Below, in pieces: positions 42,224-55,761 of a DNA stretch of 64,000 bases. The notes beneath the pieces were generated by a model that was given only the letters and a program-made list of their open reading frames with translations, was not told the origin of the DNA and searched no databases. Made by a program: the position numbers and the translations under genes. Position 1 is the first letter of the stretch. The number at the start of each line of letters is the position of its first letter. The stretch covers positions 1,736,001 to 1,800,000 of the forward strand of contig NZ_CP049257.1 in assembly GCF_011046535.1 (NCBI RefSeq), in the 5' to 3' direction. Source of the DNA: Nocardioides anomalus. Its GTDB lineage: Bacteria > Actinomycetota > Actinomycetes > Propionibacteriales > Nocardioidaceae.

Positions 42224-42787
42224 GTGATCCGCGCCTACTGCCCCGACGACGCCGCCGCCGTCCGCACCGTCGTCTCCGACGCGTTCGGCGCGGAGGGCGC
42301 CCGGGTCGCCGACCTCGCCGAGGCGCTGCGGGCCACGCACGGCCGGGCCGAGCTGGTGGCCGAGGAGGACGGCGACGTCGTCGGCCACGTGCTGCTCAGC
42401 CGCTCCTGGATCGACGCCCGGCCGGCGCTGGTCGAGGTCCTGGTGCTCAGCCCCCTCTCGGTCGCGCCCGCCCACCAGCGCCGGGGGACCGGCACCGCCC
42501 TGGTGGCCGCCGCGATCGACGCCGCGCGGGCGCTCGGCGTACCCGCGGTGTTCCTGGAGGGCGACCCGGCCTACTACTCCGCGCGCGGCTTCGCGCCGGC
42601 CACCCCGCGCGGTTTCACGCGGCCCTCGGTGCGGATCCCCGAGGCGGCCTTCCAGGTCGTGCTCCTCCCGGCCCACGAGCCCTGGATGAGCGGGGCACTG
42701 GTCTACGGCGAGCCGTTCTGGTCCTACGACGGCGTGGGGCTGCGTGACCCACACCTCGCCAGTATCGAACAAGCGTTCGAATCCTGA
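42224..42787 (+). CDS. GNAT-family N-acetyltransferase
   Basis: A 187-residue acetyltransferase. The acetyl-CoA loop is VAPAHQRRGTGTALV, with a preceding strand VLVLSPLSV and a following VFLEGDPAYYSARGFAPA, typical of the group that acetylates small amines (as in YjdJ/YhbS-like proteins). I start at GTG 42224 (VIRAYCPDD); a TTG at 42212 would add four residues. The acceptor is unknown. Confidence 0.87.
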   Translation: MIRAYCPDDAAAVRTVVSDAFGAEGARVADLAEALRATHGRAELVAEEDGDVVGHVLLSRSWIDARPALVEVLVLSPLSVAPAHQRRGTGTALVAAAIDAARALGVPAVFLEGDPAYYSARGFAPATPRGFTRPSVRIPEAAFQVVLLPAHEPWMSGALVYGEPFWSYDGVGLRDPHLASIEQAFES

Positions 42788-42789
42788 CC

Positions 42790-42795
42790 TATCCT
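42790..42795 (+). promoter_or_regulatory. Leaderless -10 box TATCCT
   Basis: Six bases before GTG 42802; marks the start of the frameshifted gene below. Confidence 0.6.
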
Positions 42796-42801
42796 GGTCG
42801 G

Positions 42802-43168
42802 GTGCTCGTCTCCCCCGCCCGGCTGGCCCCGCGAGGTCCGTCCCCCCGACGCCCCCGACTGGGAGCGCACGGCCGTCAACTGGCTGCTGGACATCTGCCC
42901 GCCGGAGTACCGCGGCTACCCAGCCCTGCGCCGCCACGTCGTGGTGCTCGCACGCTTCGCCGTGCTCCACGTCGAGGGCAGCCAGGCCGCGGTCAAGCGC
43001 GGGCTGAGCGAGGCCCGCGCCGAGCTGCGCGACGTGGCCACGCTGGACGTCGTGGACGCGGCGGTCGAGACCTGGCTGGCCGAGGACGCACGGCTCTCGG
43101 GCGTGCGCCGCGCGGTCGGGCTGGTCGAGGAGGCGCTGCGCGGCCGGCGGTACGTCGCGCGGCTGTGA
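42802..43168 (+). pseudogene. Small conserved actinobacterial protein, frameshifted in a C run
   Basis: GTG 42802 has TATCCT six bases upstream. Five C at 42812-42816 break the frame after VLVS; with four C it continues PPGWPREVRPPDAPDWE, AVNWLLDICPPEYRGYPALR, HVVVLARFAVLHVEGSQAAV to YVARL, about 121 residues. This matches a small family I have seen in Nocardioides-like genomes, with no known function. The rest of the gene is intact, so an extra C in the assembly is likely. It lies just before the sulfur cluster promoter. Confidence 0.7.
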
Positions 43169-43217
43169 TCTGAGACACCTCTCGTCCAATCGGTGGGCCG
43201 GTGCGCCACATAAATAA

Positions 43218-43235
43218 GTAACTCAGTAGAGTTAC
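43218..43235 (+). promoter_or_regulatory. Inverted-repeat operator over the -10 of the sulfur operon
   Basis: GTAACTC-AGTA-GAGTTAC is a perfect 7-base inverted repeat in an AT-rich stretch. TAGAGT at 43227-43232 is a -10 candidate within it, putting transcription start near 43239 and leaving a leader of about 36 bases. A repressor bound here would block RNA polymerase. Confidence 0.7.
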
Positions 43236-43274
43236 GTCGTTCAGTCATGAATGACGATCAACTCTGAGGTGCTG

Positions 43275-44804
43275 ATGCCCACCACGACGTCCGGCGCGGA
43301 GCTGCGTGCCCTGCTCGACGACCCGGACCGCGAGCTCGCGGTCCTCGACCTCCGCTCACCCCTCGAGCGGACCACCGGCCACCTGGCGCTGAGCGCCGGG
43401 CTGCCCTACCACGACCTCGAGCAGCGGGTCCACGAGCTGGTCCCGCACCACGCGACCACGATCGTGCTCGCCTCCGGTCGTCCGCTGGACGACCGGGGCG
43501 CAGCGCTGCTGGAGGCGCTCGGCTACCGGGACGTCCGGCTGCTCGAGGACGGCCTCGACTCGTGGACCGCTGCGGGAGAGCGGCTCTACACGGGCACGAA
43601 CGTGCGCAGCAAGACGCTGGGCGAGTGGATCGAGGCCGAGTTCTCGACCCGGACGATCGACTCCGAGACCGTCCAGGCCTGGCGCGACGCCGGCGAGGAC
43701 GTCGTCGTCCTCGACAGCCGACCGCACACGGAGTACGTCCACCACCACGTGGCGGGCGGTCTCGACACCGGCGGAGGTGCGGAGCTCGCCTACCGCGGTC
43801 TGCAGGCGGTCAGCGGCCCGGACACCAAGATCGTCGTCAACTGCGCGGGGCGCACCCGCGGCATCGTGGGCGCGCAGTCGCTGGTCAACACCGGCATCGT
43901 CAACCCGGTCTACTCCCTCCACAACGGGACGCCGGCCTGGGGCTGGGCCGGGCTCACCATCGAGGGGGGCGACGGCCAACCGCTCGCGGCGCCCGCCGAG
44001 ATCGGTGACGACCTGCGCAAGTGGGCCCAGCAGACCCTCGAGAGCGCCGACGCCGAGGTGATCGGCGCGGCCCGGCTCGCGGAGCTGCAGGCCGATGCGG
44101 GCCGGACCACCTACGTCATCGACGTGCGCCGGCCCGAGGAGCACGCCGCCGGCCACGTCCGGGGCAGCCGGTCCGTCCAGGGCGGGCAGCTGGTCCAGGG
44201 CACCGACGAGCAGCTCGCCGTCCGCCGCTCGACGGTGGTGCTGGTCGACACCGAGGACCTCCTGCGCAGCGCGAGTACCGTGCAGTGGCTGCGCTACCTC
44301 CACGACGGCCCGCTGCGGGTGCTCGTCGTCGATGAGTCCGCCGGCACCGAGCCGACGCCGACCCCGCTGCCCGAGGTCCCGGTGGTCTCCGCCGACGCGC
44401 TCCGGCCCGGCGACCGCGTCCTGGACCTGCGCAGCTCCGAGGCCTACGCCGCCGGGCACCTCCCGGGCTCGGTGCACGCGCGCCGCGAGCACCTCGCCGA
44501 GCTGCTGCGCGACGCTCCCGCGGTCCTGGTGGGCGACGCGTCGTACCAGCCGCACTTCGCGGCCGCCGAGGCCAACGCCGCGGGCGCGAGCGTGCAGGTC
44601 CTCGACGGTGGCGTCGAGGCGGTCGCCGACCGCCTCACCGACGCCGACCCGCAGTACGCCGGCGACGTGGTCGACCAGACCGGTCCGCCGCCGTTCGGTC
44701 CCGACCGTGACCAGTGGTACCGCGACTACTTCGACTGGGAGTACTCCCTCGTCCCGGCCTCGACCGGCGACCGGGACTTCGCGTTCGAGGAGAAGCGCCC
44801 GTGA
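43275..44804 (+). CDS. Four-module rhodanese-like sulfurtransferase, first gene of the sulfur operon
   Basis: A 509-residue protein of four rhodanese-type domains in a row, each opening with a strand such as LAVLDLRSPLERTTGHL, VVVLDSRPHTEYVHHHV, TYVIDVRRPEEHAAGHV and DRVLDLRSSEAYAAGHLPG. Only the second has a catalytic Cys (Cys190 in VNCAGRTRG); the loops of modules 1, 3 and 4 read ASGRPL, DTEDLL and GDASYQ. It could move sulfane sulfur from desulfurised products to acceptors. I start at ATG 43275 with GAGG five bases upstream; ATG 43251 is an in-frame alternative without a ribosome site. The stop overlaps the permease GTG. Confidence 0.85.
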   Translation: MPTTTSGAELRALLDDPDRELAVLDLRSPLERTTGHLALSAGLPYHDLEQRVHELVPHHATTIVLASGRPLDDRGAALLEALGYRDVRLLEDGLDSWTAAGERLYTGTNVRSKTLGEWIEAEFSTRTIDSETVQAWRDAGEDVVVLDSRPHTEYVHHHVAGGLDTGGGAELAYRGLQAVSGPDTKIVVNCAGRTRGIVGAQSLVNTGIVNPVYSLHNGTPAWGWAGLTIEGGDGQPLAAPAEIGDDLRKWAQQTLESADAEVIGAARLAELQADAGRTTYVIDVRRPEEHAAGHVRGSRSVQGGQLVQGTDEQLAVRRSTVVLVDTEDLLRSASTVQWLRYLHDGPLRVLVVDESAGTEPTPTPLPEVPVVSADALRPGDRVLDLRSSEAYAAGHLPGSVHARREHLAELLRDAPAVLVGDASYQPHFAAAEANAAGASVQVLDGGVEAVADRLTDADPQYAGDVVDQTGPPPFGPDRDQWYRDYFDWEYSLVPASTGDRDFAFEEKRP

Positions 44805-45670
44805 CCGCGGTCCAGGAGGCGGCGGCCGCGACGTCCTCGCCGGTGCGCACGGTCACGCGCACCTACGACCGCGCGCGCAGCGGTCGCCTGACGGGCCGCG
44901 GCTGGGGTCGCACCCCGCAGCTCGTGCTGCGGGTCGTCGCCCCGGTCGTGCTGATCGTGCTCTGGCAGCTCAGCAGCAGTCGCGGCTGGGTCAGCGAGCA
45001 GACCCTCCCCGGGCCGACCACGATCCTCGACGCCTACCGCGAGCTGTGGCAGACCGGCGACCTCCAGGCCGCGCTGCCCATCTCACTGCGCCGCGCCGGG
45101 GTGGGGCTGCTCATCGGTGGCGGCGCCGGACTGTTCCTGGGCATCGTCGCCGGGCTCTCGGTGACCGCGGAGCGCGCCTATGACGCGCCGCTGCAGATGA
45201 TCCGGACGATCCCGTTCATCGCACTGGTGCCGTTGTTCGTCGTGTGGTTCGGCATCGGGGAGACCTCGAAGATCAGCCTGATCATCGGGGCCTCGATCTT
45301 CCCGGTCTACCTGAACACCTACCACGCCATCCGCGGCATCGACCGCAAGCTGCTCGAGGTCGGACGCACCTTCGAGATGTCGCGGTGGGCGACCATCCGC
45401 CTCGTCGTGGTCCCGCTCTCCATGCCGGGGATCCTCGTCGGCTGGAGGTATGCCGCGGGCACCGCGCTCCTCGCCCTCGTGGCGGCCGAGCAGATCAACA
45501 GCCAGGCCGGCATCGGCTACATCCTCAACACCGCCAACCAGTTCCAGCGCACCGACATCATCCTGGCCGGGATCCTCGTCTACGCCGTCCTCGGACTGCT
45601 CGTCGACGGAGTCATGCGCGGCCTCGAGCGTGTCCTGCTCCCGTGGAGGGCGACCCATGACGGCAACTGA
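44801..45670 (+). CDS. ABC transporter permease (SsuC/TauC type)
   Basis: A 289-residue inner-membrane permease with about six segments. The cytoplasmic EAA-type loop is EVGRTFEMSRWATIRLVVVP, which contacts the ATPase, and the N-terminal region has WQLSSSRGWVSEQTLPGP as in sulfonate/nitrate permeases. GTG start overlaps the rhodanese stop. It is the membrane part of the importer whose ATPase and binding protein genes follow. Confidence 0.93.
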   Translation: MTAVQEAAAATSSPVRTVTRTYDRARSGRLTGRGWGRTPQLVLRVVAPVVLIVLWQLSSSRGWVSEQTLPGPTTILDAYRELWQTGDLQAALPISLRRAGVGLLIGGGAGLFLGIVAGLSVTAERAYDAPLQMIRTIPFIALVPLFVVWFGIGETSKISLIIGASIFPVYLNTYHAIRGIDRKLLEVGRTFEMSRWATIRLVVVPLSMPGILVGWRYAAGTALLALVAAEQINSQAGIGYILNTANQFQRTDIILAGILVYAVLGLLVDGVMRGLERVLLPWRATHDGN

Positions 45671-46464
45671 CCTCTCGCCCCACGCGGGCGGCGAGCACCT
45701 GGGGGAGCCGGTCGTCCGCCTGTCCGGGCTCTCCAAGAGCTACGGCGACCAGGTGATCCTCGACGGGATCGACCTCACCATCGCCCAGGGCGAGTTCGTC
45801 GCCCTGCTCGGCCCCCTCCGGCACGGGGAAGACGACGCTGCTGCGCATCCTCGGCCACCTCGAGGACGCCACCTCGGGCACCGCGACCATCGCGCGGCGC
45901 ACGTCGGTCGTCTTCCAGGAGCCGCGCCTGATCCAGGCGCAGCGGGTGTGGCGCAACGTGGTGCTGGCCGACGGCCGCGGGGCGGCGAGCCGTCAGCGGG
46001 CCTTCGACGCCCTGGACGAGGTGGGCCTGCTGCCCAAGGCCAAGGCGTGGCCCAAGGTCCTGTCGGGCGGCGAGGCGCAGCGCGTGGGCCTGGCCCGGGC
46101 GCTGTACCGGTCCCCGGACCTCCTGCTGCTCGACGAGCCGTTCGGCGCGCTCGACGCGTTCACCCGGCGCAAGGCCCAGGACCTGGTCCTCACCCTGTGG
46201 CAGGACCACCGGCCAGGTGTCCTGCTGGTCACCCACGACGTGGAGGAGTCCCTGCTCCTCGCGGACCGGGTGATCGTCCTCGGGGGCGGTCACATCCAGG
46301 CAGACATCCAGGTCGAGACCCCTCGACCCCGGGACACGACCTCGGTCGCCTTCAACGCGATCAAGCGTGAGGTGCTGGCTCAGCTCAGCCACGTGTCCCC
46401 GCACGTGAGCCGGGACAACCCGGCCCACCGCGACCACGGCAACGACTACGGAAAGACGTCATGA
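45657..46464 (+). pseudogene. ABC transporter ATPase (SsuB/TauB type), frameshifted in Walker A
   Basis: ATG 45657 (GGAGG upstream) reads to VALLGP, then CCCCC at 45812-45816 shifts the frame. With four C the Walker A would be GPSGTGKTT, followed by RILGHLEDATSG, VVFQEPRLI, LSGGEAQRVGLARALYRSPDLLLLDEPFGALDAF with signature and Walker B, and the H-loop LLVTHDVEES. Restored length is about 268 residues. As the permease and binding protein are intact, the extra C is probably a sequence error. It overlaps the permease gene by 14 bases and the next gene by 4. Confidence 0.85.
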
Positions 46465-47498
46465 AGAAGCTGCTCATCTCCCTGCTCACCGCGGTGCTCG
46501 TCACCGCCGGACTCACCGGTTGCTCGGCGTTCGGCAGCGAAGGCGACTCCGGTGGGAAGACCAAGCTCACGATCTCCTACCAGGACACCGCGTTCCCGGC
46601 CCTCATCAAGGCCTCCGGCGTGCTCGACGGCGCGGACTTCGACGTGGAGTGGGTCAACCTGACCGGCCCGGCCGCCAACCTGCAGGCGCTCTACTCCGGG
46701 GCCATCGACCTGGGGCACATGGGTGACACCTCGTTGACCATCGAGCAGGCCAACGCCAAGACCGAGTGGACCGCGGACAACGCGCCGCTGGAGATCGTGG
46801 CCGGCTGGCGCAACCCCTACAGCGAGGAGTACTCACCGCTCGTCACCGCGGTCCGCACCTCGGCCGGGATCGACGACCTCAGCCAGGCCAAGGGCCACAC
46901 CTGGGGCTACAACTTCGGTGGCTACAACCACGCCCAGTACCTCGTCTCCCTGGTCAAGGCCGGGCTGAGCGAGCAGGACATCAAGCCGACCCAGTTCGCG
47001 GACGGCGCGACCTCGGCGGCGGCCTTCAACAACGGCGAGGTCGACGTCTACTCCGGCGCCCACGGGGCGATCCTGTCCTCGCTCACCTCCGGGGACGCCA
47101 AGATCCTCCTCGACGACAGCGACACCGACATCCCGGCGCTGAACGTGTGGACGGCCCGCAAGGACGTGCTCGCCGACGACGACAAGAACGCGGCGCTCAA
47201 GGACTTCTTCTCGCGGATGTCGGGCTACTGGGCGTGGCACGACGACCACCCGGACGAGGTCAAGGACATCCTCAAGAAGCAGCTCAAGGTCGACGACGCC
47301 CGGGCCGACTTCGAGTTCCAGGTGCGTCGTGGGCAGTTCCAGGCCTTCGACGACGACCTCATCACCCGCGAGCAGGCCGTGGCGCAGAGCCTGTTCGACG
47401 GCGGGGCGATCGCGAAGCTGCCGGACGTCGGCATCGGCTTCGACCCTCGCTACAACGAGGTGCAGAAGGCCGTACCCGACGCGGGCGCCCCCGAGTGA
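46461..47498 (+). CDS. ABC transporter substrate-binding lipoprotein (SsuA/TauA type)
   Basis: A 345-residue solute-binding protein with LTGC lipobox (Cys21) after a hydrophobic signal. The fold is the NMT1/SsuA class: KLTISYQDTAFPALIKASGVL, FDVEWVNLTGPAANLQALYSGAIDLGHMGDTS and, later, FNNGEVDVYSGAHGAI. Members bind alkanesulfonates, taurine, nitrate or aromatic sulfonates. The neighbouring desulfurisation genes suggest an organosulfur ligand. ATG overlaps the ATPase stop, and the GTGA at the end overlaps the next gene. Confidence 0.9.
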   Translation: MKKLLISLLTAVLVTAGLTGCSAFGSEGDSGGKTKLTISYQDTAFPALIKASGVLDGADFDVEWVNLTGPAANLQALYSGAIDLGHMGDTSLTIEQANAKTEWTADNAPLEIVAGWRNPYSEEYSPLVTAVRTSAGIDDLSQAKGHTWGYNFGGYNHAQYLVSLVKAGLSEQDIKPTQFADGATSAAAFNNGEVDVYSGAHGAILSSLTSGDAKILLDDSDTDIPALNVWTARKDVLADDDKNAALKDFFSRMSGYWAWHDDHPDEVKDILKKQLKVDDARADFEFQVRRGQFQAFDDDLITREQAVAQSLFDGGAIAKLPDVGIGFDPRYNEVQKAVPDAGAPE

Positions 47499-48748
47499 CG
47501 GCGTCCACCCTGACCACGGCGCGGACCTTCCTCGACGACCTCACGCAGGTCGTCGAGGGGGTCCGGGCCGGCGCGGTCCGCCGGGACCGGGAGCGGCAGT
47601 ACGCCGTCGCCGAGATCGACCAGCTGCGCGAGCTCGGCTTCTGGTCTCTGACCGTCCCGGTCGAGCACGGCGGCCTCGGCCTGGACCAGGAGACGCTGGT
47701 CCAGGCGGTGCTGCTGGTCGCGGCGGCGGACGGCAGCCTCGGCCAGATCCCGCAGAACCACTTCATGACCGTCGAGCGGATCCGGCTCACCGCGGCTCCC
47801 GGTCAGCGTGAGCACTGGCTCCGTGTGCTCGGCGCCGGTGCGGTCCTCGGCAACGCCTCGGCCGAGCCCGGCGAGCGTCCGCCCGGCGAGTCGGCGTCGG
47901 CCCTGCACGGCGGCCCGGGCTCCTGGCGACTGACCGGCCGCAAGGTCTACAGCACCGGGGCCCTGCTGGCCGACCACATCGCGGTGCAGGTCCGCGACCC
48001 CTCCGGCGCGCAGCGCACCGTGCTGGTCCCGCGCGACGCCGACGGCGTGGTCGTCCACGACGACTGGCAGAGCATGGGGCAGCGGACCACCGCGTCCGGG
48101 GTCTCGGAGTACCACGAGGTGGCGATCGACGACATCGCCGTGCTCGACCACCCGGGCGACCCGGTGGCGACGTACCGCGTCTCTGCGCTCGGCCAGCTGG
48201 TGCACGCGGCGATCGACGCTGGTCTCGCCGAAGGAGCCGTGGGCGAGGCGCTGGCGCTCGCCCGCACGGTGCACGGCGGCCGGGGGAGCGGGGCCAGGGA
48301 GTTCGGCGACGACGTGCTCGGCGTGGCGCTGCTCGGGGAGCTGCGGGTCACGGCGCTCTCCGCCCGCCGCCTCGTGGAGTCGGCCGCCCGGCGGCTGGCC
48401 GCCCTGGAGCAGGACTCGTCGCTCGAGGAGGTCGCCGACGTCTTCTACGAGGTCGCGGCGGCCAAGCTGGCCAGCACCCGTGCCGCGCTCACCGCGACCG
48501 CGGGCCTGTTCGAGGTCGGCGGCTCCAGCTCGACGCGTCCCGAGCTCGGCCTGGACCGCTACTGGCGCGACGCGCGCACCCACACCCTGCACGACGCCGC
48601 CCGGTGGAAGCCGTTCGCCATCGGCCGGTGGCTCATCGCCGGCGACGTCGCCGACCCCTGGAGCATCGCCCACCCCTTCCGCCCGCTCGGCGAGCTGGAG
48701 CAGCAGGTCGACCACGCGGGACCGGCCAGCGACAGGAGCGCCTCGTGA
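47495..48748 (+). CDS. Acyl-CoA dehydrogenase-fold flavin monooxygenase (DszC/SfnB-like)
   Basis: A 417-residue protein with the acyl-CoA dehydrogenase fold. Helical N-domain ([37 protein letters not shown]), a central strand domain (TGRKVYSTGALLADHIAVQV, WQSMGQRTTASG) and a helical C-domain (TAGLFEVGGSSSTRPELGLDRYWRDARTHTLHD). In DszC and SfnB relatives this fold uses FMNH2 and O2 to oxidise sulfur or carbon. The catalytic Glu of true acyl-CoA dehydrogenases is absent, as expected. It overlaps the binding-protein gene. Confidence 0.88.
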   Translation: MTASTLTTARTFLDDLTQVVEGVRAGAVRRDRERQYAVAEIDQLRELGFWSLTVPVEHGGLGLDQETLVQAVLLVAAADGSLGQIPQNHFMTVERIRLTAAPGQREHWLRVLGAGAVLGNASAEPGERPPGESASALHGGPGSWRLTGRKVYSTGALLADHIAVQVRDPSGAQRTVLVPRDADGVVVHDDWQSMGQRTTASGVSEYHEVAIDDIAVLDHPGDPVATYRVSALGQLVHAAIDAGLAEGAVGEALALARTVHGGRGSGAREFGDDVLGVALLGELRVTALSARRLVESAARRLAALEQDSSLEEVADVFYEVAAAKLASTRAALTATAGLFEVGGSSSTRPELGLDRYWRDARTHTLHDAARWKPFAIGRWLIAGDVADPWSIAHPFRPLGELEQQVDHAGPASDRSAS

Positions 48749-50058
48749 CCGGACCCCGGCGGCTGCACCTCAACGTCAACGTCAACAGCTCGGGGCGCCA
48801 CCCCGCCTCGTGGCAGGTGCAGCCCGACCCCCTGGGCTTCCTCGACCTCGGCTACTTCGAGGAGATCGGCCGGCTGGCCGAGCGCGGCCGGCTGGACGCG
48901 GTCTTCTTCTCCGACGGCTTCGACCACGGTCAGCCGAAGGTCTCCCGGCCGTGGCAGGCGCTCGACCCGTTCGTCCCGCTCACCGCGGTGGCGCGGGTCA
49001 CCGAGCACGTCGGGCTGGTCGCGACCCAGTCCTCGAGCTTCCAGCACCCCTACAACATCGCCCGGTCGACGGCCTCGCTCGACCTCGTGTCCGGTGGTCG
49101 CGCGGCCTGGAACGTGGTCGCCACGCGCAACCCCGTCGCCGCGCTCCTGTTCGGCCTCGACGACCTGCCGAGCCACGACGACCGGTACGCGCGAGCCGAG
49201 GAGGCGGTGCGGATCGCGCTGGAGCTCTGGGAGTCGTGGGAGCCGGAGGCGCTGGTCGCGGACCAGAAGTCGGGCACCTTCGCCGACACCGCGCGCATCC
49301 ACCCGATCGCCTTCCGCGGCCAGCACTTCCGGGTCGAGGGCTCGCTCCAGGTCCCGCGCTCGCCGCAGGGCCGACCGGTGCTGCTCCAGGCCGGTGGCTC
49401 GCCCCAGGGCACCGCCCTCGCCGCGACGTACGCCGATGCGGTGTTCTCGGTGAGCCACACCCTCGAGGGGGGCCAGCAGTTCTACGCCGACGTCAAGGCC
49501 CAGGCCGCCACGCACGGGCGCGACCCCGACCACGTCGTGATCCTGCCCGGCCTGTTCCCGGTGCTCGGCAGCACCGAGGCCGAGGCGCGCGAGCGCAAGC
49601 GGTGGCTCGACGAGGTGGCCGGCTTCGACGAGGAGCTCGACGCGCTGACCGCGACCCTGGGCCTCGAGCCCGGCGACCTGCAGCTGGACCAGCCGCCGCC
49701 GTGGGAGACGATCGAGCAGCGCTCCGGGGGGCTCAGCCAGGGCTTCGCGAGTGCCATCCTGGACCTCGCCCGGCGCGACGGCCTCACCGTCCGCGAGCTG
49801 CTCGACAAGAACCCCAACGGCCACCGCAGCCTGGTCGGCACCCCGGAGCAGGTCGCCGACGACATCGAGCGCTGGTTCACCGGACGCGCCGCCGACGGCT
49901 TCAACCTCAACATCGACTTCTTCCCCGACGGTCTGGTCAACGTGGTCGAGCAGCTGGTGCCGGAGCTGCAGCGGCGCGGGCTGTTCCGCACCGACTACGA
50001 GGCCACCACGCTGCGCGGCAACCTCGGGCTGCCCGACCCGGCGCCGGCGGTGCGCTGA
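48745..50058 (+). CDS. NtaA/SnaA/DszA-family flavin-dependent monooxygenase (1 of 3)
   Basis: A 437-residue luciferase-like enzyme. The barrel has [17 protein letters not shown] near residue 50, the GRAAWNVVA loop typical of the NtaA class, and PQGRPVLLQAGGSPQGTALAA. These enzymes take reduced FMN from a partner reductase and split C-S or C-N bonds using O2. It resembles members that act on sulfones or sulfonates, but the substrate is inferred from the cluster. GTG start (GGAG upstream) overlaps the previous gene. Confidence 0.9.
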   Translation: MTGPRRLHLNVNVNSSGRHPASWQVQPDPLGFLDLGYFEEIGRLAERGRLDAVFFSDGFDHGQPKVSRPWQALDPFVPLTAVARVTEHVGLVATQSSSFQHPYNIARSTASLDLVSGGRAAWNVVATRNPVAALLFGLDDLPSHDDRYARAEEAVRIALELWESWEPEALVADQKSGTFADTARIHPIAFRGQHFRVEGSLQVPRSPQGRPVLLQAGGSPQGTALAATYADAVFSVSHTLEGGQQFYADVKAQAATHGRDPDHVVILPGLFPVLGSTEAEARERKRWLDEVAGFDEELDALTATLGLEPGDLQLDQPPPWETIEQRSGGLSQGFASAILDLARRDGLTVRELLDKNPNGHRSLVGTPEQVADDIERWFTGRAADGFNLNIDFFPDGLVNVVEQLVPELQRRGLFRTDYEATTLRGNLGLPDPAPAVR

Positions 50059-50855
50059 TGGACCTGCTGCTGACCGGCAAGCGGGCCGTCGTCACCGGGG
50101 CCGCCGGGGGGATCGGCCGCGAGGTCGCCCACGCGCTGGCCGCCGAGGGCGTCGACCTGGTCCTCACCGGCCGGACCGCCGCCACCCTGGAGAAGACCGC
50201 GGCCGCGGTGACCGAGCGCAGCGGTCGCTCGGCCCACGTCGTGGTCGTGGACGTCCGCGACGACGCGGCGGTCCGGGCCATGGTCGACCGGGCCGTCGAG
50301 GTGCTGGGCGGTGTCGACATCCTGGTCAACTCGGCCTCCAACCAGGCGGTCGGCCGACACATGCCCCGGCTGGCCGAGACGGGCGACGACGTCTTCTGGG
50401 ACGACGTCGACACCAAGCTGGTCGGCTACCTGCGCACCTCGAGGGCGGTGGCACCCCACCTCGTCGCCCAGGGCTGGGGCCGCATCATCAACATCGCCGG
50501 CCTGGGCGCGCGGGAGACCCGCTCGATCGTCCGCACCGTCCGCAACGTCGGCGTGGCCGCCCTGACCAAGAACCTCGCCGACGAGCTCGGACCGCACGGT
50601 GTCAACGTGACCGCGGTCCACCCCGGGCTCACCCGCACACCGGAGCTGGCCGAGGAGCTGACCGCCCGGGCTGCCGCCGAGGGCCGCACCCTGGCCGAGC
50701 TCGAGGACGAGCTCGGTGCCAACGCGCTCAACCGGCTCGTCGACGCCACCGAGGTGGCCGACGTGGTGGCCTTCCTGGCCTCACCGCGCAGCGTCGCGGT
50801 CAACGGGGACGCGGTCGGCGTCGGCGGAGGGACGCGCGGTGTCGTCCACTACTGA
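50058..50855 (+). CDS. SDR-family protein lacking the usual YxxxK motif
   Basis: A 265-residue Rossmann protein with VVTGAAGGIGRE at 11-22, NSASNQ where NAGG is usual, GRIINIAGLGARET, and VHPGLTRTPELAEE. The Tyr-x-x-x-Lys position is replaced by a RTVRNVGVAALTKNLADEL segment, where Arg and Asn stand for Tyr and Lys. A group with this RN pattern exists among bacterial SDRs, so it may use a different catalysis. It is coupled by TGATG to the monooxygenase, and the next gene starts 17 bases before its stop. Confidence 0.85.
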   Translation: MDLLLTGKRAVVTGAAGGIGREVAHALAAEGVDLVLTGRTAATLEKTAAAVTERSGRSAHVVVVDVRDDAAVRAMVDRAVEVLGGVDILVNSASNQAVGRHMPRLAETGDDVFWDDVDTKLVGYLRTSRAVAPHLVAQGWGRIINIAGLGARETRSIVRTVRNVGVAALTKNLADELGPHGVNVTAVHPGLTRTPELAEELTARAAAEGRTLAELEDELGANALNRLVDATEVADVVAFLASPRSVAVNGDAVGVGGGTRGVVHY

Positions 50856-52024
50856 GGACTTCCCCGTGCTGGTCCGCCTCGGGTTCGCCGACCAGGTCGT
50901 CGCGCTGGCCGAGGGCGAGGTCGAGCGGGAGCGGACCGGGCGGGCGCCGTACGACGAGGTGCGGCTGCTCGCGAAGTCGGGGTACGGCGCGGTGCGGCTC
51001 CCAGCGCGGCTCGGCGGGCCGGGCGCCACCCTGATCGAGCTGGTCGAGGCCACCGTGGAGCTGGCCTCGGCCGACTCCAACGTGGCGCACCTGCTGCGCA
51101 ACCACTTCCTGTTCGTCGAGGGCGCGCTGGCCGACGAGGCCCACCACGGACGCTGGCTCACCGACATCGGCGACGGCCTCCTCTTCGGCCTGGGGTTCGG
51201 GGAGACCGACATGCCACGGGCCGGGGCGGAGGAGTTCGGGACCACCCTCACCCGGCACGCCGAGGGCTACGTGCTGGAGGGCACCAAGCACTACTCCACG
51301 GGCAACGCCTACAGCGACAAGATCGTGGTCAAGGCGGCCGAGCCCGGTGGGGGGCGTCGCGGTGGCCGTGGTGCCGACGCACCGCGAGGGCGTCACGTGC
51401 CTCGACGACTGGGACGGCTTCGGGCAGCGCTTCACCGCGTCCGGGACGACCGTGTTCCGGGCTGTGCGCCTCAGCCCCGACGAGGTCGTCACCGCCGCCG
51501 AGGTGGAGGCCCGGCCGGCCCGGCGGAGCAGCCCGTTCGCCCAGGTGTACCTGACCGCGGTCGTCGCCGGGATCGCGGCGGCCTGCGCCCGGGACGCGGT
51601 GGCGCTGGTCCGGGGCCGGCGCCGGAACTTCTTCCACGGGACCGCGCCCGAGCCGCGCCACGACGCGGTGCTGCAGACGACGGTCGGCCGCCTCTCGGCC
51701 GACGCCTACGCCGCGCGCGCCACCGTCCTCGAAGCGGCCCGGTCGCTGGCCGCGGCGCAGGCCGACGGCAGCGTCGCGGCCATGGAGCGCGCTGCGTTGG
51801 ACGCGGCCCGCGCGAAGGTCGTCGTCGACGAGCTCACGACGCGTGCGGCCACCGGCCTGCTCGAGGCCGGGAGCGCCTCGGCGGTCCGCGCCGGCGCCGC
51901 GCTCGACCGGCACTGGCGCAACGCCCGGACCGTCATCGCGCACAACCCGGCGTCGTACAAGCTGCGCGTCCTCGGTGACCACGCGCTCAACGGGACGCCG
52001 CCGCCCGTGGGCTCCTTCTTCTGA
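50839..52024 (+). pseudogene. Second DszC/SfnB-like acyl-CoA dehydrogenase-fold monooxygenase, frameshifted in a G run
   Basis: Starts at GTG 50839 (VSSTTEDFPVLVRLG) with AEGEVERERTGRAPYDEV, SGYGAVRLPARLGGPGATL and GTKHYSTGNAYSDKIVVKAAEPGG. Six G at 51349-51354 then break the frame. With five G it would go on GVAVAVVPTHREGVTCLDDWDGFGQRFTASG to [14 protein letters not shown] and [18 protein letters not shown], about 394 residues in all. The full reconstructed protein is typical of this class. It is probably a sequence error in an otherwise working gene. It shares fold with the gene at 47495. Confidence 0.8.
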
Positions 52025-52074
52025 CCCGCCCCGGACCCCCCGCCCCACAGACGCACGACCCCTGGAGGACGTTC

Positions 52075-53400
52075 GTGACCACCACGAGCCTGCTGCCGCT
52101 CATCGTCAACATGCAGCCGTCCGGCGTGCACGCCGGCGCCTGGCTGGCGCCGGGCGCCGACCCCCGCGCGTTCATCAGCCTCGACTACCACCGCGAGCTC
52201 GCGACCCTGGCCGAGCGGGGTCGCCTCGACGGCGTGTTCCTGGCCGACTTCGCCGCGCTGCAGCCCGAGTCCGGGCGCCAGCCGCGCTGGACCTTCGACC
52301 CGGTGGTGACGCTCTCGGCCCTGGCCGCGGTCACGGAGCACGTCGGGCTGGTGGCGAGCATCAGCACCACGCTCACCGAGCCGTACCACGTGGCCCGCGT
52401 CGTCGCGTCCCTCGACCACGTCAGCCGAGGCCGGGCCGGCTGGAACGTCGTGACGTCCTTCGACCCCAACTCGGCCCGCAACTTCGGCCTGGCCCAGCTG
52501 CCGGACAAGGACGCGCGCTACCGGCGTGCGGGGGAGTTCGTCGAGGTCGTCGATGCCCTCTGGTCCTCCTGGGAGCAGGGCGCGCTCGCCCTGGACCGCG
52601 GGACCAGGACGTTCATCGACACCGACAAGGTGCACCCGGTCGACCACGTCGGCGAGTTCTTCTCCGTGGCCGGCCCGCTGCAGGTGCCACCGCCGCCCCA
52701 GGGCCGCCCGGTCGTGTTCCAGGCGGGCGGATCGGACGCGGGTCGCGACCTCGCGGCCCGCACCGCCGACGGCGTCTTCGCGGCCCAGCTCACCGTGGCC
52801 TCCTCGCGCGAGTACCGCGACGACCTGCGCGTCCGTGCCGAGAAGGCGGGCCGTCGAGCCGACGACGTCCGGCTCTTCCCCGGCGTCGTGGTCACGGTGG
52901 GCGAGACGCGCGCCGAGGCGCTGGCCAAGCGGGAGGCCCTCAACGAGCTGGTGGGCTCGCCCGACGCCCGCCTGGCCGGTCTCGCCCACTTCATCGGCGT
53001 CGACCCGGCGTCGCTGGCCCTGGACGAGCCGCTGCCCCCGGCGGTCCGGGAGAGCGCCGGCAGCGGTGGCGGTGCCGAGGGGTTCCGCCAGTCCGTGCTG
53101 AGCTTCTTCGACGAGCCGGGTCGCACCGTGGGCGATTTCCTGCGCGAGGGGTCGCTCGGGCACCGCACGCTCGTCGGGGACCCCGCGACCATCGTCGACA
53201 GCCTCGAGGAGTGGCGCGACGGGGGTGCGGCCGACGGCTTCGTGCTCATGTTCGAGTCGCTCCCCACCGGGCTGCGCGACTTCGTGGAGCTGGTCGTCCC
53301 CGAGCTGCAGCGTCGCGGTCTGACCCGCACCGAGTACGACGATCACGAGACCTTCGCGGCCCGCCTGGGCCTCGACCGACGAACGGAGACCCACGCGTGA
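52075..53400 (+). CDS. NtaA/SnaA/DszA-family flavin-dependent monooxygenase (2 of 3)
   Basis: A 441-residue luciferase-like enzyme with [55 protein letters not shown] and [17 protein letters not shown], the standard signature of the NtaA class. It differs from the other two at many positions, so the three probably have different substrates. GTG start has GGAGG upstream and follows the second DszC-like gene by 50 bases. Its stop overlaps the aldo/keto reductase GTG. Confidence 0.92.
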
Positions 53401-54389
53401 GCACGCACCGCAGGCTCGGCGCCCTCGACGTCTCGCCGACCGGACTCGGCTGCATGAGCTTCGTGCAGTCCACCGAGCCCGCCGACGAGCAGGTCGCCCG
53501 CGAGGTCATCGAGGCCGCGCTGGACGAGGGCGTGAGCTTCTTCGACACCGCCGACATCTACGGCAAGGGCATCAGCGAGACGCTGGTCGGCCGGGTGCTG
53601 GCTCCGCGTCGCGACGAGGTCACGATCGCGACCAAGTTCGGCAACCGCCTCGACGGCGACCAGCCGGGCGGCCGCGACCTCGACGCCCGACCGGAGTACG
53701 TCCGGTCCGCGCTGGAGGCCTCGCTGCGGCGCCTCGGCACCGACCACGTCGACCTGTACTACCTGCACCGGGTGGACGCGCAGGTGCCCATCGAGGAGAC
53801 CTTCGGGGCCCTGGCCGAGCTGGTCGAGGCCGGCAAGGTCCTGCACCTCGGGCTCTCCGAGGCCGGGCCGCAGACGATCCGGAGGGCCCACGCCGTGCAC
53901 CCGGTCACCGCCGTGCAGTCGGAGTGGTCGGTCTTCAGCCGCGACATCGAGGACGAGGTCGTGCCGGTCGCGCGCGAGCTCGGCATCGGGCTGGTGCCGT
54001 ACTCCCCCCTCGGTCGCGGGCTGCTCACCGACCTGATCCGGTCCGCCGACGACGTTCCCGAGCGGCTCCGGGGCCGCGAGCGCTACAGCGGCGAGGAGCT
54101 GCGTCACAACGTGGCTCTGGCCGACGAGGTCCGCGAGGTGGCGGCCGAGCTGGGCGTCCAGGCCGGGCAGGTCGCGCTCGCCTGGGTGCTGGCCCAGGGG
54201 GACGACGTGGTGCCGATCCCGGGGACCAAGCAGGTCGACCGCGCGCGGAGCAACGCCCGCTCGGTCGACGTACGCCTCGACGACGCGCAGCGAGCCCGGC
54301 TGGACCGGCTCGCCGACCGGGTCCGCGGCCACCGCTCGCCCCGGCCGGAGCTGGTGGGGCTCGAGGCGCCGCTGCCGGCGTCGGTCTGA
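53397..54389 (+). CDS. Aldo/keto reductase
   Basis: A 330-residue NADPH-dependent reductase. The catalytic tetrad is seen as Asp and Tyr in [14 protein letters not shown], Lys in TKFGNRL, and His in YYLHRVD. The nucleotide end is [20 protein letters not shown], typical of the AKR11/YcsN-like branch. It could reduce the aldehyde released when a monooxygenase cleaves a C-S bond. It is in the sulfur operon with a 4-base overlap to the gene before and lies 10 bases before the next. Confidence 0.92.
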
Positions 54390-54399
54390 GGGGCCGGCC

Positions 54400-55761
54400 G
54401 TGGCCCGCAGGATCCGCTTCAACGCCTTCGCCATGAACACCGTCGGCCACCAGTCGCCGGGGCTGTGGCGCCACCCCGAGGACCGGTCGGAGCACTACAC
54501 CGACCTCGAGCACTGGACCGAGCTGGCCCGGGTGCTCGAACGCGGCGTCTTCGACGGGGTGTTCCTGGCCGACGTGCTCGGCACCTACGACCTGTACGGC
54601 GGCGACAGCGCGGCCTCGCTGCGGGCGGCGGCCCAGGTCCCGATCAACGACCCGATGATGCTCGTCCCGGCGATGGCGCTGGTCACCGAGCACCTCGGCT
54701 TCGGCGTCACCGCCAACACCTCGGCCGAGCACCCCTACCCCTTCGCAAGGCGGATGTCGACGCTGGACCACCTGACCCGGGGGCGCGTCGGGTGGAACGT
54801 CGTCACCGGCTACCTCGACTCGGCCGCCCGCAACATGGGCGCCACGCAGCTCGAGCACGACGAGCGCTACGACCAGGCCGAGGAGTACCTCGAGGTCACC
54901 CGCAAGCTGTGGGAACTGTCCTGGGAGGACGACGCGGTGGTCCGCGACCGCGTGTCGGGCGTGTTCGCCGAGCCCGCGAAGGTGCACCCGATCGGGCACC
55001 ACGGGCACTGGTTCGACGTCCCGGGCTTCCACCTCAGCGAGCCGTCCCCCCAGCGCACGCCGGTGGTCTACCAGGCCGGGGCGTCACCGCGCGGCCTGGC
55101 CTTCGCCGCCCGGCACGCTGAGGCCATCTTCGTGGGCGGCTCCAGCCCGGAGTCGCTGAGGGCCGTCGTCGGCCGCGCCCGGCAGGCGCTGCACGACGCG
55201 GGTCGCGACCCCGACGGCGTGCGGATCTACACCAAGCTCACGATCATCACCGCCGCGACCTCGCAGGAGGCGCACGCCAAGCACGCGGAGTACCTGCGCT
55301 ACGCCGACGTGGAGGGCGCCCTCGCCCTGGTGTCGGGCTGGATGGGCGAGGACCTGTCCCGGCACGACCTCGACCAGCCGCTCGGCACGGTCAGCAGCAA
55401 CGCCATCCACACCTACGCCGCGGCGTTCTCCGGGACGCGGGACGACGGCAGGCCGTGGACGGTGCGCGACCTCGGCGAGCGTGCCGCCATCGGCGGGCTG
55501 GGGTCGCTGGTCGTCGGCTCCGGGCAGGAGGTGGCCGACCAGGTCGAGGACCTCGTGGAGCAGACCGGCGTGGACGGCTTCAACCTGGCCTACGTCGTGA
55601 CACCGGGCTCGTTCGTCGACGTGGTCGAGCACGTCGTGCCGGTGCTCCAGGAGCGGGGCCGCTACCCGACGGCGTACGAGCCGGGCACCCTGCGCCACAA
55701 GCTGCTCGGTGCGGGCGACCGGCACTCCGAGCCGGTGTCGAGGGTCGGGCAGCCGGCCTAG
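54400..55761 (+). CDS. NtaA/SnaA/DmoA-family flavin-dependent monooxygenase (3 of 3), last gene of the operon
   Basis: A 453-residue luciferase-like enzyme that begins RIRFNAFAMNTVGHQSPGLW, the N-terminus of the DmoA/NtaA branch. LTRGRVGWNVVTGY and PQRTPVVYQAGASPRGLAFA follow. DmoA cleaves dimethyl sulfide, so this may act on a small organic sulfide; substrate unproven. GTG start has GAGGGG upstream. Its TAG stop shares CTAG with the TAG of the convergent GH18 gene. Confidence 0.92.
   Translation: MARRIRFNAFAMNTVGHQSPGLWRHPEDRSEHYTDLEHWTELARVLERGVFDGVFLADVLGTYDLYGGDSAASLRAAAQVPINDPMMLVPAMALVTEHLGFGVTANTSAEHPYPFARRMSTLDHLTRGRVGWNVVTGYLDSAARNMGATQLEHDERYDQAEEYLEVTRKLWELSWEDDAVVRDRVSGVFAEPAKVHPIGHHGHWFDVPGFHLSEPSPQRTPVVYQAGASPRGLAFAARHAEAIFVGGSSPESLRAVVGRARQALHDAGRDPDGVRIYTKLTIITAATSQEAHAKHAEYLRYADVEGALALVSGWMGEDLSRHDLDQPLGTVSSNAIHTYAAAFSGTRDDGRPWTVRDLGERAAIGGLGSLVVGSGQEVADQVEDLVEQTGVDGFNLAYVVTPGSFVDVVEHVVPVLQERGRYPTAYEPGTLRHKLLGAGDRHSEPVSRVGQPA

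Follow-up and report, generated by a model that had tools for sequence, protein, structure and literature searches.

An operon of eleven genes in a 64,000-nucleotide stretch of contig NZ_CP049257.1 of Nocardioides anomalus (the whole stretch is called the window below) raises the question of what a four-module rhodanese, an SsuABC-like importer and five flavin monooxygenases do together, and whether they scavenge organosulfur as a first-pass annotation had proposed. Our analysis suggests, with a probability that we put at roughly three in four, that the operon is a sulfur-starvation system which scavenges sulfur from organic compounds. We favour this reading because of the gene content and order, the recurrence of the cluster in other genomes, the poverty of its proteins in cysteine (Cys) and methionine (Met), and an upstream site in common with other sulfur genes; the last two of these lent new support to the annotation's proposal. 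The best-supported point of this sequence-based reading is that the operon would belong to sulfur-limited growth, and, judging from its genes, we regard it as a variant of the known organosulfur-scavenging clusters. The genome, a single contig of 5.12 Mb, was taken as Nocardioides, with two of the genomes compared below (labelled G192 and G061) as genus-mates.

Gene content and recurrence of the operon

The eleven genes lie on the plus strand from 43275 (alternatively 43251) to 55761, in the order in which they are listed here, followed by the palindrome in front of them and the two runs at which reading frames shift (SDR, short-chain dehydrogenase/reductase; FMN, flavin mononucleotide; ABC, ATP-binding cassette).

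43275..44804, plus strand: four-module rhodanese (four PF00581 stretches in frame; upstream ATG at 43251 possible)
44801..45670, plus strand: SsuC-like ABC permease (PRK11365, 216 bits, missing the cut-off of 347)
45657..46464, plus strand: SsuB-like ABC ATPase, frameshifted (part after the frameshift: PRK11247, 175 bits)
46461..47498, plus strand: divergent SsuA-family substrate-binding protein (TIGR01728, 88 bits, missing the cut-off of 163.5; 2x26, 37 bits)
47495..48748, plus strand: SfnB/DszC-like group D flavin monooxygenase 1 (TIGR04022, 339 bits, missing the cut-off of 430.9)
48745..50058, plus strand: NtaA/DmoA-family FMN-dependent monooxygenase 1, without Cys or Met (TIGR03860, 470.7 bits, above the cut-off)
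50058..50855, plus strand: SDR-fold protein without Tyr-x-x-x-Lys (Pfam adh_short)
50839..52024, plus strand: SfnB/DszC-like monooxygenase 2, frameshifted (two fragments, TIGR04022 positions 20-165 and 172-386)
52075..53400, plus strand: NtaA/DmoA-family monooxygenase 2 (TIGR03860, 470.9 bits; 45% identical to no. 1)
53397..54389, plus strand: aldo/keto reductase (PF00248, 255 bits; Asp, Tyr, Lys and His motifs present)
54400..55761, plus strand: NtaA/DmoA-family monooxygenase 3 (TIGR03860, 540.0 bits)
43219..43233, no strand assigned: operator-like palindrome, TAACTC-AGTA-GAGTTA in context (palindrome 43218-43235); the minus strand reads AACTCTACTGAGTTA
45812-45816, plus strand: run of five C at the ATPase frameshift (net +1, inside the Walker A motif)
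51349-51354, plus strand: run of six G at the SfnB-like 2 frameshift (net +1)

The gaps between neighbouring genes, which were called with our own codon-score heuristic, are -4, -14, -4, -4, -4, -1, -17, +50, -4 and +10 bases in operon order, the widest being 50 bases; the close packing of eleven genes on one strand, as annotated at first, was therefore borne out by gaps of mostly -1 to -17. The gene classes were likewise recovered by profile searches (four rhodanese modules, an SsuC/SsuB/SsuA-like transporter, two SfnB/DszC-like and three NtaA/DmoA-family monooxygenases, one SDR and one aldo/keto reductase), but the gene list did not stand as one of eleven intact genes, since the ATPase gene and the second SfnB-like gene are frameshifted here. 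As for the single promoter that had been assigned, a sigma-70-type scan gave no match, which leaves the tight packing and the one upstream operator-like site as the sole arguments for it.

All three NtaA/DmoA-type proteins score above the TIGR03860 cut-off of 279.7 bits, and they are the only three of the genome to do so. The third is closest to the dimethyl-sulfide monooxygenase 6ak1 (521 bits, residues 1-445), with LadA near behind (465 bits); the nearest structures to the first are YtnJ/MoxC, and the second gives near-equal scores for several members. SfnB-like protein 1 keeps the C-terminal RTHxLHD segment and matches DszC structures at about 156 bits, and it lies outside both the SfnB equivalog (TIGR04022, 339 against 430.9 bits) and the DszC equivalog (NF043015, 169 against 850 bits). 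SfnB-like protein 2 was scored against TIGR04022 as two fragments only (77.9 and 168.9 bits). By its SsuA and SsuC scores the importer falls outside the SsuABC alkanesulfonate importers, with 88 of 163.5 bits for the SsuA family and 216 of 347 bits for SsuC; the SsuB model gave 175 of 395 bits, scored only on the part 3' of the frameshift.

Profile search found no flavin reductase gene inside the operon, in agreement with the earlier annotation, the five PF01613 and seven PF03358 matches of the genome all lying elsewhere (the PF01613 match nearest to the operon is about 53 kb upstream). A group at G000:C1:263968-265921 in this genome, where LLM monooxygenase, FMN_red and flavin reductase matches stand side by side, is a candidate source of reduced FMN (FMNH2). 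We rejected the idea that the missing local reductase is remarkable, since reductases acting in trans are known: according to the consulted parts of the two reports, all monooxygenases of the dimethyl sulfide pathway of Acinetobacter ADP1 are powered by a single reductase (PMC13352529), and plasmid-borne dsz enzymes are served by a chromosomal one (PMC8557817).

Two known systems are among the closest to the operon. The ssu/sfn/msu sulfate-starvation clusters of Pseudomonas and Acinetobacter have SsuABC-like import and group C and group D two-component monooxygenases in common with it (PMC13352529, in the part consulted), but the oxygenases of the operon are below the SsuD, SfnG and SfnB equivalog cut-offs, and it has no local reductase, NtaA-type enzymes instead and a rhodanese in front. 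The dszABC genes of Rhodococcus IGTS8 (4S pathway) share DszC-like and DszA-like enzymes, a reductase encoded elsewhere and Cys/Met-poor enzymes, as far as the consulted part of PMC8557817 describes them, whereas the profiles used assigned DszB to none of the eleven genes, and the DszC score is the low one given above for SfnB-like protein 1 (169 versus 850 bits). Outside support for organosulfur scavenging comes from Gordonia alkanivorans 135, in which an SfnB-family protein, the acyl-CoA-dehydrogenase-like QGP87979.1 and the NtaA/DmoA protein QGP87980.1, the next accession, rise on dibenzothiophene compared with sulfate (PMC11852219, in the part consulted).

The distribution of the rhodanese was patchy: at E<=1e-20, 6 of the 198 family genomes had a match, and at E<=1e-60, 8 of the 394 class genomes did, with the own genome counted both times. 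The first-pass annotation had known of no cluster with this combination of genes, and this uniqueness had to be rejected: Nocardioides sp. SYSU D00038 (G061), of the same genus, has all eleven genes in identical order, and the six core genes (rhodanese, permease, ATPase, binding protein, SfnB-like 1 and NtaA 1) recur in other genera. The G061 cluster was read as two adjoining pieces, loci L107 and L108, which join in frame inside NtaA 2. Its proteins have 70-85% BLAST identity to the proteins or fragments of the window, and it has the same operator; it differs in that the ATPase and SfnB-like 2 frames are open and the operator stands some 220 bases ahead of its rhodanese gene. The gene-order comparison across genomes that the annotation had called for thus found the full order kept in G061 and core or partial sets elsewhere: the core six in two actinobacteria (G106 and G545), the core without NtaA 1 plus SfnB-like 2, NtaA 2 and NtaA 3 in G192, and, in G429, G389, G521 and G292, a set in altered order whose SDR gene adjoins the rhodanese or lies close to it. 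The six core genes are also present in Pseudomonas sp. MWU16-30317 (L045), where permease to NtaA 1 are followed by an MmgE/PrpD gene and then the rhodanese, and a mixed set occurs in Paraburkholderia atlantica (L090). Aldersonia (L018) has the rhodanese with an SfnB-like neighbour only, and no cluster was found near the rhodanese in G137, G195, G266 and Nocardia miyunensis (L019). Note that the contig scan for relatives covered the best 80 of 582 confirmed matches, so the loci are no census. A description of the gene combination was not found in the open-licence literature searched. A TauD-family dioxygenase gene lies within one related cluster (L119 7709-8617).

Sulfur amino acid content and the rhodanese family

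The proteins of the operon contain 27 Cys and Met residues, starts excluded, among 4132 residues (0.65%), compared with a background mean of 2.1% in 310 called proteins, those shorter than 200 amino acids being left out, from sampled stretches of the genome and the rest of the window. No value as low as that of the operon was found among 101 overlapping sets of 11 consecutive called genes (lowest 1.42%) or 20,000 random draws of 11 genes (lowest 0.86%), and NtaA 1 and the ATPase have neither residue. The low Cys/Met content of the 4S enzymes has been noted, for a sulfate-starved culture, in the consulted part of PMC8557817. Among the relatives, the cluster genes were poorer in Cys and Met than the other called genes of their locus at all 11 loci, from 10 genomes, with the smallest difference at L108 (1.00 versus 1.26%).

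This poverty is most pronounced in the rhodanese, which has 509 residues with one Cys and no internal Met. The Cys stands in module 2 (NCAGRTRG), the only one of the four modules to carry one, and its loop was invariant across 15 aligned rhodanese proteins. The nearest solved structure is 1yt8 (264 bits, aligned over residues 25-504), which we take to be PA2603, and the protein, with its four modules and the Cys loop in module 2, belongs to the four-module rhodaneses of this type. Among the best 120 of 3276 matches, a lone Cys without any internal Met was seen in 56 of the 63 closest near-full-length ones, while the 55 most distant, many of them longer fusions, carry 2-10 Cys and 4-15 Met.

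We then grouped the 91 rhodanese frames in 91 loci by their neighbours with thresholds set by ourselves, leaving out L108 and L110 and assigning to the clusters those loci that combine cluster genes with a dioxygenase (2 of 13). Thirteen frames were in clusters, 37 had a cysteine-dioxygenase-type gene beside or fused to them, and 41 had neither. The median Cys+Met content was 0.19% in the clusters (n = 13), 2.14% in the dioxygenase-linked frames (n = 37) and 2.65% in the rest (n = 41), the difference between the first two groups being significant (P = 1.4e-6). The dioxygenase-linked type is represented by the Pseudomonas 3mdo-tst unit (PA2602-PA2603; PDB 1yt8), which shares a four-module rhodanese of the same family; there, however, the rhodanese is paired with a thiol dioxygenase, no SsuABC/SfnB/NtaA set is reported in the consulted part of PMC12947264, and rhodaneses linked in this way have a much higher Cys/Met content than the cluster-linked ones. 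The mercaptosuccinate dioxygenase cluster of Advenella and Variovorax likewise has a rhodanese-related gene within an organosulfur cluster, with an adjacent ABC transporter in Advenella, but the transporter is of the amino-acid type and no flavin monooxygenases are named in the consulted part of PMC5373536.

Some further members of the family were observed. P0066 and other proteobacterial proteins of about 710 amino acids are fusions of a cysteine-dioxygenase-type cupin to a four-module rhodanese. Two four-module rhodanese genes share one organosulfur cluster (L115, in G429); both encode a single Cys and lack internal Met. In Nocardia miyunensis, the rhodanese (L019 9833-11598) spans two frames and is broken or mis-sequenced.

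The operator-like palindrome and its possible targets

The palindrome is unique in the window and lies 17 nucleotides before the ATG at 43251 and 41 nucleotides before the ATG at 43275; read on the minus strand, it also resembles a terminator hairpin, with a weak score. A second such site in the genome, a near-copy, stands 18 nucleotides ahead of what seems to be the start of a molybdopterin gene (sulfite-oxidase-like, with Oxidored_molyb and Mo-co_dimer matches), and a one-mismatch search found no further site in this genome. The pattern AACTNTACTGANTNA was drawn from three sites (the operon leader, the molybdopterin gene and the G061 rhodanese), and its exact search in 196 Nocardioides genomes gave 9 sites in 8 genomes, with 1 for the reversed-pattern control. 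Seven of the nine sites, and four of the six not used for the pattern, are before sulfur genes. Two of these six sites precede metallo-beta-lactamase/rhodanese proteins, two precede TauE exporters followed by genes which read by eye as cysD and cysN, and the remaining two (L166 in G583 and L167 in G576) precede an FAD-NAD(P)-binding (PF13454) protein, possibly an unrecognised sulfur gene in view of the operator in front of it. The sites occur in either orientation with respect to their genes, in keeping with an operator.

No regulator gene stands directly at the site in the seven longer loci that were read. Inspection by eye showed AsnC/Lrp-like genes at L172 and L173, 2-4 kb from the site, and at L176 an ArsR-like gene some 2 kb from it; two strong Rrf2 proteins are encoded elsewhere in this genome. 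The open part of the molybdopterin gene (L141 1534-2762) is itself sulfur-poor, with 1 Cys and 1 internal Met in 351 amino acids.

A search of the open-licence literature, covering titles and the starts of abstracts for 10 of the 28 papers found, showed no sulfur regulon in Nocardioides. We tentatively raise, as a possible rather than a probable combination, an undescribed sulfur-responsive regulon of Nocardioides with AACTCTACTGAnTYA-like sites (including this operon and the sulfite-oxidase-like, metallo-beta-lactamase/rhodanese and TauE-cysDN genes), a rhodanese clade stripped of nearly all sulfur amino acids but the catalytic Cys, and an SDR without Tyr-x-x-x-Lys in a new role at the C-S bond.

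Around the operon, a known RNA family in the leader was rejected, since Rfam gave no match up to E=1 in 42900-43400. The stretch just 5' of the operon (window positions 42743-43168) is non-coding-like and then has a short open frame, perhaps a gene remnant or a further frameshift. The 3' neighbour is a GH18-like gene on the opposite strand. A downstream cupin was considered as a thiol dioxygenase and rejected, as it has a Cupin_3 and a weaker Cupin_2 match and no CDO_I match.

Alternative explanations and the proposed pathway

Several observations weigh against a sulfur-starvation system that scavenges organic compounds. The exact operator is present in only 8 of the 196 genomes and is absent from G192 despite its cluster; the target is ambiguous at three of the nine sites (L163, L164 and L166), where a divergent gene starts on the other side, 2 of the 9 targets have no known sulfur role, and the TauE, cysD-like and cysN-like targets are not sulfur-poor. 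Within the operon, the permease and NtaA 3 are ordinary in Cys and Met (ranks 78 and 102 of 310). The low content could also partly follow the clade, 9 of the 13 cluster-linked rhodaneses being actinobacterial; the four proteobacterial ones (L045, L059 and two in L090) have 0.57-1.39%, under both other medians. None of the tested transporter or SfnB-like proteins or fragments attains its curated cut-off, so that these matches point to no particular substrate. Finally, 2 of the 11 genes, the importer ATPase among them, do not read through as sequenced, and two frameshifts at G/C runs in 12.5 kb compare with about 0.2 expected from the 6 such cases in about 451 kb elsewhere.

The placing of relatives of the rhodanese beside, or fused to, cysteine-dioxygenase-type genes, together with the same operator before metallo-beta-lactamase/rhodanese and TauE genes, would suit an operon for thiol or sulfane-sulfur handling (detoxification of sulfide, persulfide or thiosulfate) instead of nutrition, with the rhodanese as the core and the oxygenases as accessories. 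We consider this unlikely, as the median Cys/Met content of the 13 cluster-linked rhodaneses (0.19%, against 2.14% in the 37 dioxygenase-linked ones) points to starvation and not to sulfur excess, and five flavin monooxygenases with an importer are scavenging hardware. Less probable still is an operon for the catabolism of a xenobiotic or a natural product, with sulfur involved only incidentally. The NtaA family also includes enzymes that act on aminopolycarboxylates, alkanes and chlorinated aromatics, and nitrilotriacetate and EDTA (ethylenediaminetetraacetate) monooxygenases, LadA and hexachlorobenzene dehalogenase are among the structural relatives, but such an operon leaves the Cys/Met poverty, the operator common to sulfur genes and the rhodanese unexplained.

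Another question is whether the operon is decaying, the ATPase and SfnB-like 2 genes being true pseudogenes, so that this strain would have lost import and only some of the enzymes would work. Each of the two genes has one net extra base (+1), neither frame is intact in this assembly, and two such cases in one 12.5-kb operon exceed the sampled rate. A frame scan by codon usage, run over the window and another twenty stretches of 20 kb from this genome (463,980 bases in all; the sampled part is 8% of the genome), gave 14 candidate frameshifts, including both in the operon, although the number reflects penalties that had been lowered until the two known cases were recovered. A G/C run of at least 5 was found within 61 bases at 8 of the 14 candidates, compared with 9.8% of 2000 random places, and 7 of these 8 are +1. 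The six elsewhere, at G/C runs of 5-7 (L122:3026, L129:16073, L131:9638, L132:12394, L135:2694 and L139:17817), suggest homopolymer errors in the assembly, and a further frameshift at a run of six G was seen by eye in the 5' part of the molybdopterin gene (L141, G000:C1:1244.6 kb). The sequence after each operon frameshift scores as one open coding frame, and the other nine genes keep open frames; in relatives, the ATPase is one open frame in G061, G106, G192 and G545, and SfnB-like 2 in G061 and G192. Because similar frameshifts at G/C runs occur in the sampled part of the genome, assembly error is the likelier cause, and both operon frameshifts are most likely such errors; decay of the operon seems improbable to us.

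Classical SDR oxidoreductases have a catalytic Ser and Tyr-x-x-x-Lys, and aldo/keto reductases have an Asp-Tyr-Lys-His tetrad. The aldo/keto reductase of the operon has DTAD, IYG, TKFG and LHR in order and belongs to its family. The SDR-fold protein, which had already been annotated as lacking the usual active site, indeed falls outside the classical oxidoreductases: Tyr-x-x-x-Lys is absent from all six proteins compared (its own and five relatives) and present in all three SDR paralogues of the sampled genome, and the usual Ser position is Gly in all six, four of which have Ser one place earlier. That Arg and Asn occupy the Tyr and Lys places was rejected by alignment with the canonical paralogues, and only the absence of the motif stands. 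This absence in six of six proteins indicates a loss common to at least two actinobacterial families, and makes it unlikely that the SDR-fold protein is an ordinary carbonyl reductase.

From family chemistry we infer a scavenging pathway of import, sulfur oxidation, C-S cleavage, aldehyde reduction and sulfur handling by the rhodanese. A sulfur-responsive regulator encoded in trans would act at the palindrome before the first gene, so that the operon is made when sulfate or cysteine is short, and the SsuABC-like importer would take up an organosulfur compound. The two SfnB/DszC-type enzymes may oxidize its sulfur (from sulfide through sulfoxide to sulfone, or from sulfinate to sulfonate), and the three NtaA/DmoA-type enzymes may cleave the C-S bond to an aldehyde and a small sulfur species, finally sulfite, with FMNH2 supplied by a reductase encoded elsewhere. 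The aldo/keto reductase would then reduce the aldehyde, the rhodanese would act through its single cysteine on the sulfur product (sulfite/thiosulfate or a persulfide), and the SDR-fold protein may have a binding role or another catalytic role.

For this genome, the results imply that genes at G/C runs in the assembly may be misread. That the SDR motif is consistently lost suggests chemistry still to be explained, and the operator provides an entry point to a putative sulfur regulon of Nocardioides. The four-module rhodanese family, for which the literature found gave no assigned role, would now be tied to sulfur starvation in actinobacteria, and a ready test lies in the contrast between its cluster-linked members, which are nearly without sulfur amino acids, and the dioxygenase-linked ones, which are not.

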